This document shows, piece after piece, positions 1,701 through 36,945 of a stretch of DNA of 36,945 nucleotides (positions within the stretch are counted from its first letter, which is position 1; each line of letters starts with the position of its first letter). A model generated the notes under the pieces. That model was not told where the DNA came from. It saw only the letters and a list, made by a program, of their open reading frames with translations, and made no database searches. Source of the stretch: Candidatus Rokuibacteriota bacterium (GTDB lineage: Bacteria > Methylomirabilota > Methylomirabilia > Rokubacteriales > CSP1-6); the NCBI GenBank assembly GCA_003220225.1, contig QHRU01000070.1, forward strand, positions 1-36,945, read 5' to 3'. The translations under genes were made by a program, and so were the position numbers.

Positions 1701-1739
1701 GAGGACCTCCGATGCTACCGGTCCTCGCGCTTCGGTAGC
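1701..1739 (-). promoter_or_regulatory. Expression platform with two competing helices at the Shine-Dalgarno
   Basis: GCTACCG (1739-1733), the 3' end of the aptamer, is fully complementary to CGGTAGC (1720-1714). GAGGACC (1726-1720) is fully complementary to GGTCCTC (1707-1701), which includes the last two bases of the GGAGG Shine-Dalgarno and abuts the ATG. The two 7-bp helices cross and share C1720, so they should exclude each other. Inference: ligand-bound aptamer holds CTACCG, the second helix forms and masks the ribosome site (OFF); without ligand the first helix forms and translation proceeds (ON). There is no T-run, so control is probably translational. Confidence 0.7.
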
Positions 1740-1818
1740 CTGGCGGCCCGAGCGTCCGGCACTCGGGTCCATGGCTTTGCGTCCCAGCCTTACGGCTGGT
1801 TTGCCGTTGTCGCGGGCG
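1726..1818 (-). promoter_or_regulatory. c-di-GMP-I (GEMM) riboswitch aptamer
   Basis: Read on the minus strand, the hallmark order of the GEMM-I class is present: GGCAAACC (1805-1798); a hairpin CCAGCC/GGCTGG (1799-1794 with 1789-1784) capped by the GNRA tetraloop GTAA; GGGACGCAAAGCC (1785-1773); a second arm with CCGAG/CTCGG; then GGCTACCGA (1740-1732). Flanking CGCG (1814-1811) can pair with CGCG (1729-1726), and CGG with CCG, to form P1. It lies 26 nt before the first receiver gene on the same strand. Known members bind cyclic di-GMP and control motility, biofilm and signalling genes. Confidence 0.9.
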
Positions 1819-2121
1819 AGGCGTACGGATACGACGCAATGGGCGTGCCGACCCCCACGCGGTTCCGTAAGTACCTATCGGTACATGACGGCGGCCTCGG
1901 AGACGTCACGGGCGTAGTTGATTCTTGGTCGTCGGGTCCCGCTCCGGCGACAAAACGCCGGGTCACCAGAGCCAGAGCCTCATCGGGCACGATGCCCCGA
2001 CGAGAGCTGAGTCGGCGGGCGCGCCGCCCGCGCTTCACGACCCCCGGTCCAGAAATCCGCGATATTCCCGCACGTGTCCTCTGGCATCGAGTATGCGATG
2101 GGGGCTCCGACATCTCGTCTC
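1819..2121. other. Intergenic stretch with no gene recognised
   Basis: This is the region between the riboswitch (minus) and the small VKGG gene (plus). It should hold the promoters of both divergent units. A short dyad GTACC-TATC-GGTAC lies at 1871-1884. Several long open frames cross the region on both strands, but none shows family features or a ribosome site. No second riboswitch is seen on the plus strand. Confidence 0.4.
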
Positions 2122-36352: not shown

Positions 36353-36945
36353 GTGCGCCGGTCACACCGGCGCGGTGCAGTGAATGAAAGAGTCATGCGG
36401 CGAAGGCGTAGCGAGCCACGCCGGCCCCGAGTCATGCGTGAGCGTCCGTAAGGGCGACCGCGAAGCGTTGACAGGGGGAGGTACGGGCCGGGTATGGAGC
36501 CGCGAAATCAATGAACCACTTCGGGGTGCCGACGCGGTGGAGACAAGCGGAAGGCCACGCCGGCAGTGCCGATATCGCGAGGCGCTGACGGACCCTGCGC
36601 GGTCAAAGACCCTGCGCAGATATCCAAGCACCGCGGACGGGAACCAGGAGAGCCCGCGTTCGTCGGTGGCCGAGGGGGCCGCAGACCGCAGCGGGAAGTC
36701 CAAGGACACACGCCGATGATGGACGAGCGCGGGCAGTCGGACCGCCCCGTAGTACCGGGGAAGCCGCCGAACAAGGCCGAGGAGCCGGCCGCGGAGGCGG
36801 TGGAGGGAAGGGGGCGGGCCAAGGGGAACTCGGGCGAGCGCGACGCGCTCCGGACACCGGGCCGGGGAGGCGCGCTCAGTGCGCTCGCGCGAGTGCGTCA
36901 GGCAGCCGAACGGGACAGCAAGCAGCGGTTCACGGCGCTCCTGCA
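36353..36945 (+). mobile_element. Group II intron, 5' part
   Basis: It begins with GTGCG (36353-36357), the group II 5' consensus GUGYG, followed by a hairpin GCGCCGGT-CAC-ACCGGCGC. About 360 nt of structured, non-coding sequence (domains I to III) precede the maturase ORF, with recognisable stretches such as GCGAAGCGTTGACAGG and GGTATGGAGCCGCGAAATCA that recur in bacterial group II introns. The EBS1/IBS1 match supports the boundary. The maturase ORF and domains V-VI run beyond the window. It is oriented opposite to the DinB-like gene it interrupts. Confidence 0.93.
36716..36945 (+). CDS. ltrA: Group II intron reverse transcriptase/maturase, N-terminal part
   Basis: ATG 36716 opens a frame to the window end: MMDERGQSDRPVVPGKPPNK, then EGRGRAKGNSGERDALRTPG, then ALARVRQAAERDSKQRFTAL. 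This is the typical N-terminus of bacterial LtrA-type intron-encoded proteins; the RVRQAAxxDxKxRFTALL segment leads into RT block 0/1. The reverse transcriptase core lies outside the window. It has a GGAAG before the start. The protein aids splicing and reverse splicing of the intron that carries it. Confidence 0.9.
   Translation, partial: MMDERGQSDRPVVPGKPPNKAEEPAAEAVEGRGRAKGNSGERDALRTPGRGGALSALARVRQAAERDSKQRFTALL

Follow-up and report, generated by a model that had tools for sequence, protein, structure and literature searches.

A c-di-GMP-I (GEMM-I) aptamer precedes two response-regulator receiver genes on the minus strand of the window, the whole 36,945-nt stretch of Candidatus Rokuibacteriota DNA analyzed here, and the four bases GAGG (1723-1726) belong both to the 3' strand of its P1 stem and to the 5' strand of a second hairpin, helix 2, next to the first start codon. 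This arrangement of aptamer, P1, and helix 2 with shared bases is conserved in one ortholog and one paralog of the locus. Because P1 and helix 2 both need GAGG, they are mutually exclusive, and from the sequence and the modeled folds we lean slightly toward a translational switch in which c-di-GMP turns the two-receiver operon on. A fuller description is offered more tentatively: a clade-specific translational c-di-GMP ON switch of a REC-REC operon, in which GAGG would serve alternately as P1 3' strand and as anti-ribosome-binding-site strand and in which about 1 kcal/mol would separate the two states while the start codon is emerging. The features are collected in Table 1.

Table 1. Features of the riboswitch locus in the window (positions on the forward strand)
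Feature	Position	Strand	Basis or remark
Second gene: stand-alone receiver, 125 aa	904-1281	-	PF00072, 96.2 bits
First regulated gene: stand-alone response-regulator receiver, 140 aa	1278-1700	-	Pfam PF00072, 83.6 bits
Helix 2, 3' strand GGUCCUC	1701-1707	-	Direct reading; MFE of full leader, pairing probability 0.95-1.00
Shine-Dalgarno sequence GGAGGU	1705-1710	-	Direct reading; 4 nt before the ATG at 1700-1698
Helix 1, 1733-1739 with 1714-1720	1714-1739	-	Present, 7 bp; 1/76 leaders; probably not functional
Helix 2, 5' strand GAGGACC	1720-1726	-	7 bp; kept in L079 and L005
Outer P1, 3' strand GCGAGG	1723-1728	-	Direct reading; in MFE folds of transcripts ending before the ATG
c-di-GMP-I (GEMM-I) aptamer core: P2, P3, inner P1	1730-1814	-	RF03167 and RF01051 matches
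Outer P1, 5' strand CCUCGC	1816-1821	-	Direct reading

Aptamer identity and expected ligand

A first-pass annotation made from the letters of the window had proposed a GEMM-I aptamer on the minus strand, and the covariance search bears it out. Rfam cmscan returned c-di-GMP-I-GGC (RF03167) at 1814-1730 minus with 68.6 bits (E 2.3e-14; gathering score 59) and c-di-GMP-I (RF01051) at 1815-1731 minus with 67.5 bits, above the curated threshold of 35. The span of 1701-1818 given at first stops inside the 5' strand of P1, which runs to about 1821. The aptamer has a P1-P2-P3 architecture, the sequences on either side of P2 and P3 pairing as P1. The ligand contacts of Vc2, G20, A47, and C92 (PMC4744006), map by alignment to 1805, 1778, and 1735 and are all canonical in the window. 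Thus c-di-GMP is the ligand to be expected by default, and the "GGC" variant label is a matter of score. In sequence, secondary structure, contact residues, and stem order the window resembles RF01051 and carries no feature that would set it apart, save a slightly irregular P1 with a C-C mismatch; the aptamer is real, but it is an ordinary c-di-GMP switch.

The top Rfam label might suggest a variant riboswitch for some other ligand, and RF03167 does outscore RF01051 by 1.1 bits. This we consider very improbable, given that G20 and C92 are canonical and that position 47 is A in the window and in all 82 parsed relatives. We take the name GGC to denote G in place of A47, the position being drawn from the RF03167 consensus, which has G there; membership in c-di-GMP-I-GGC was rejected on this base, and the label reflects general sequence similarity. 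An A at position 20 marks the c-GAMP-sensing GEMM-Ib riboswitches, and the window has G1805 there. Elsewhere, aptamers L035, L065, L146, and L157 in other genomes do have A rather than G at position 20 (..AAGAGCAAACC..), and aptamer L070 has C.

Receiver operon and distribution

The first-pass annotation was also right that two receiver genes lie downstream, as PF00072 is found in both products. The start of the second gene overlaps the stop of the first by 4 nt (ATGA). Across 60 genomes of the order, the first protein has three other matches with E below 1e-27, namely an ortholog (L079, 57% identity), a paralog (L005, 51%), and a relative (L026, 42%), and all four of these best-matching receiver loci have a c-di-GMP-I aptamer upstream. 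A second receiver gene likewise follows the first in L079 and L005. Protein searches of the order (60 genomes), the phylum (95 genomes, one class), and named genomes found no further orthologs. A small number of receiver operons share the expression platform.

The aptamer class itself is more widely distributed. At least one match occurs in 35 of 60 relatives and 14 of 27 further genomes, and the genome of the window has seven matches above the cut-off, one weak remnant, and five GGDEF genes. A literature search found no riboswitch paper for this lineage, which is probably Rokubacteriales. The weak remnant, L008 (G000:C121:12839-12888), scores 32 bits with RF03167, keeps P2, lacks P3, and lies upstream of a putative exported protein; its sequence reads as that of a riboswitch that has decayed or been truncated. 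Group II intron domains (RF02005 group-II-D1D4-6, 180 bits) occur toward the window's right end, at 36389-36612 on the plus strand.

Competing helices in the leader

Two perfect 7-bp pairings had been pointed out in the leader, GCTACCG (1739-1733) with CGGTAGC (1720-1714), here helix 1, and GAGGACC (1726-1720) with GGTCCTC (1707-1701), here helix 2. Direct reading finds both in place, interleaved and with C1720 in common. The 3' strand of helix 2, which adjoins the ATG, covers the end of the Shine-Dalgarno sequence. No terminator was found on the minus strand, again as first proposed. What that anatomy overlooked is outer P1 (1816-1821 with 1723-1728), a helix of 6 bp. Relatives of the window aptamer have a long P1, and a flank-swap test over 77 leaders gave a mean of -10.5 kcal/mol for the leaders' own P1 flanks versus -8.9 kcal/mol for swapped ones, a result reached in 0 of 2000 permutations.

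Helix 2 recurs in the ortholog and the paralog. In L079 it reads GAGGACCC/GGGUCCUC, 8 bp adjoining the ATG, and in L005 GAGGcCCC/GGGaCCUC, 7 of 8 pairs; the loop between the strands differs among the homologs, and the helix is part of the full-leader MFE fold in the window, L079, and L005. It is missing from L026, the leader of which folds differently. The three homologs, the only ones available for this comparison, show no double compensatory change, and the duplex energy gains modestly over that of shuffled sequences (P 0.03-0.08 for each sequence). Searching 59 genomes for the pattern GAGGACC..GGTCCTC was uninformative, with several hits per genome and no clear excess over a reversed control. 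In a leader survey that left out 26 loci that the aptamer pattern could not parse, the window, L079, and L005 pair the P1 3' strand with the ribosome-binding site, and no other of 72 leaders does so (L028 aside). L028 was considered as a fourth member and rejected, its aptamer end having been misparsed.

Folding of successively longer transcripts shows an exchange between P1 and helix 2. In the window, L079, and L005, GAGG is at first held in P1 and passes into helix 2 when the nucleotides just upstream of the ATG become available; at the flip point of the window the two states are 1.2 kcal/mol apart in energies that leave out ligand, tertiary contacts, and kinetics. In constrained folds, imposing P1 raises the openness of the ribosome-binding-site region (-12 to +3) from 0.38 to 0.46-0.60 in the window, from 0.26 to 0.53-0.55 in L079, and from 0.31 to 0.40 in L005. 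A fold that combines the aptamer core, inner P1, and helix 2 comes to within 0.8 kcal/mol of the full-P1 fold in the window; in L079 and L005 it is the favored one of the two, by 3 and 10 kcal/mol, respectively. In these models helix 2 can thus coexist with a short inner P1, and this is the main weakness of a ligand-ON reading, most pronounced in L005. The Cd1 RNA binds ligand with almost no P1 (PMC9262584), so ligand could bind here as well without opening helix 2.

Proposed switch and its alternatives

In the c-di-GMP-I class the ligand stabilizes or forms P1 (PMC9262584; PMC4744006), and P1 mutations reduce expression in Vc1, which is activated by c-di-GMP (PMC4744006). Since P1 competes with helix 2 in the present leader, the predicted outcome is activation. 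Without ligand, GAGGACC would leave P1 and pair with GGUCCUC, and helix 2 would then mask the end of the Shine-Dalgarno sequence, abutting the start codon, and hold translation off. With c-di-GMP, P1 (CCUCGC 1821-1816 with GCGAGG 1728-1723) would be stabilized, GAGG would be withheld from helix 2, and the ribosome-binding site would be freed. We infer that translational coupling by way of the ATGA overlap would extend this control to the second receiver. The ON polarity is itself a prediction, one that we hold to be slightly more likely than not.

The first-pass annotation had read the same leader as OFF with ligand: bound ligand would keep GCUACCG in the aptamer, so that helix 1 could not form and helix 2 would, whereas in ligand-free RNA helix 1 would form and turn translation on. 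Both 7-bp matches do exist and interleave, helix 1 includes the ligand-binding C1735, and a complement of at least 7 nt to the aptamer 3' end has a chance probability of about 0.007 when only the window leader is considered. The feasibility of short P1 together with helix 2 also favors this polarity, as a ligand-bound aptamer could retain helix 2. Across 76 leaders, however, such a complement occurs once, in the window, against 0.29 expected by chance, and not even 6 nt is reached in any other; the longest complement to the last eight bases of the aptamer is 3 nt in L079 and in L005. The annotation had staked its model on conservation of both 7-bp helices in homologous leaders. Helix 2 is kept in L079 and L005, but helix 1 is found in 0 of the 75 other leaders, ortholog and paralog included, so helix 1 fails by the annotation's own measure. 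The energies point the same way. Helix 1 was never the best fold in any transcript prefix tested. In the window it lies 5.9 kcal/mol above the P1 fold at the point where its 3' strand first becomes available, 2.8 kcal/mol above the best fold when the bases before the ATG appear, and 8.6 kcal/mol above helix 2 at full length. The first and last of these values predict a ligand-free RNA that is OFF, not ON. Absent in homologs and energetically unfavored, helix 1 was rejected as a conserved anti-aptamer element and is probably not functional. The OFF assignment, which ignored the overlap of P1 with helix 2, depended on helix 1 competing with helix 2. It is P1 that competes with helix 2 in a conserved manner, and this gives the opposite polarity. 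We therefore regard OFF with ligand in the window as probably wrong and the model built on helix 1 as improbable. The 42% relative L026 (1473-1598, minus strand) has a CGGUAGC of its own just past the start codon, in the coding region and complementary to the GCUACCG of its aptamer; the predicted fold in which it lies is strong and masks the start, and we note it as a lead only.

Nor does interleaving by itself make the two helices alternative, as had been argued, since they have a single base in common and, with loops of about 6 and 7 nt, could coexist as an H-type pseudoknot. If so, helices 1 and 2 could form together without ligand in the window, masking C92 and the ribosome-binding site, and ligand would open both to give ON, with helix 1 as a window-specific supplement to the conserved P1/helix 2 switch. 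The geometry read from the sequence is permissive (S1 7 bp, S2 6 bp), but with helix 1 unconserved this arrangement is quite improbable. Somewhat less so, although still unlikely, is an aptamer with short P1 that binds c-di-GMP while helix 2 is constitutive or opened by the ribosome, control being exerted through RNA stability, Rho, or co-transcriptional timing. The preference of L079 and L005 for short P1 with helix 2 speaks for it, as does Vc1, which works without an evident anti-Shine-Dalgarno element or terminator (PMC4744006). Against it stands the exact overlap of P1 with helix 2, kept in three receiver leaders and absent from the other parsed leaders. The exchange of GAGG between P1 and helix 2, with c-di-GMP activating, remains the reading that we prefer.

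In nine other leaders of the survey the P1 3' strand itself contains a Shine-Dalgarno-like match, which would predict OFF with ligand there; in L020, L025, L048, and L068 the Shine-Dalgarno sequence lies inside the P1 3' strand, and ligand should switch translation off. Opposite polarities may coexist within one lineage. L019, L058, L024, and L070 have a P1 3' strand similar to the Shine-Dalgarno strand of a hairpin further downstream (GAAAGGA..), a likeness that a strand-exchange OFF switch would be expected to show.

Relation to known switches and significance

Two characterized members of the family each share part of the proposed design. The pilM riboswitch of Geobacter metallireducens, a GEMM-I member that senses c-GAMP and acts by transcription termination, is an ON switch because its aptamer and OFF fold exclude each other (PMC9262584). 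The same ON logic, aptamer with P1 against an OFF fold, is modeled for the window, which differs from pilM and its terminator and c-GAMP ligand in having a Shine-Dalgarno hairpin and no terminator. Vc2 of Vibrio cholerae, a translational c-di-GMP-I switch with P1 as its key switching element, is reported to repress with ligand in a work cited in PMC9262584. Translational control with the state decided by P1 is likewise what is modeled for the window; unlike Vc2, the window switch is predicted to activate.

These results place a regulon of c-di-GMP riboswitches in what is probably Rokubacteriales and link c-di-GMP to two-component signaling through a compact, readable switch. They also indicate that assigning polarity takes more than the ligand-binding strand of the aptamer, as one must also read how P1 pairs with the expression platform. 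If the ON reading is true, c-di-GMP would feed directly into the supply of receiver protein.
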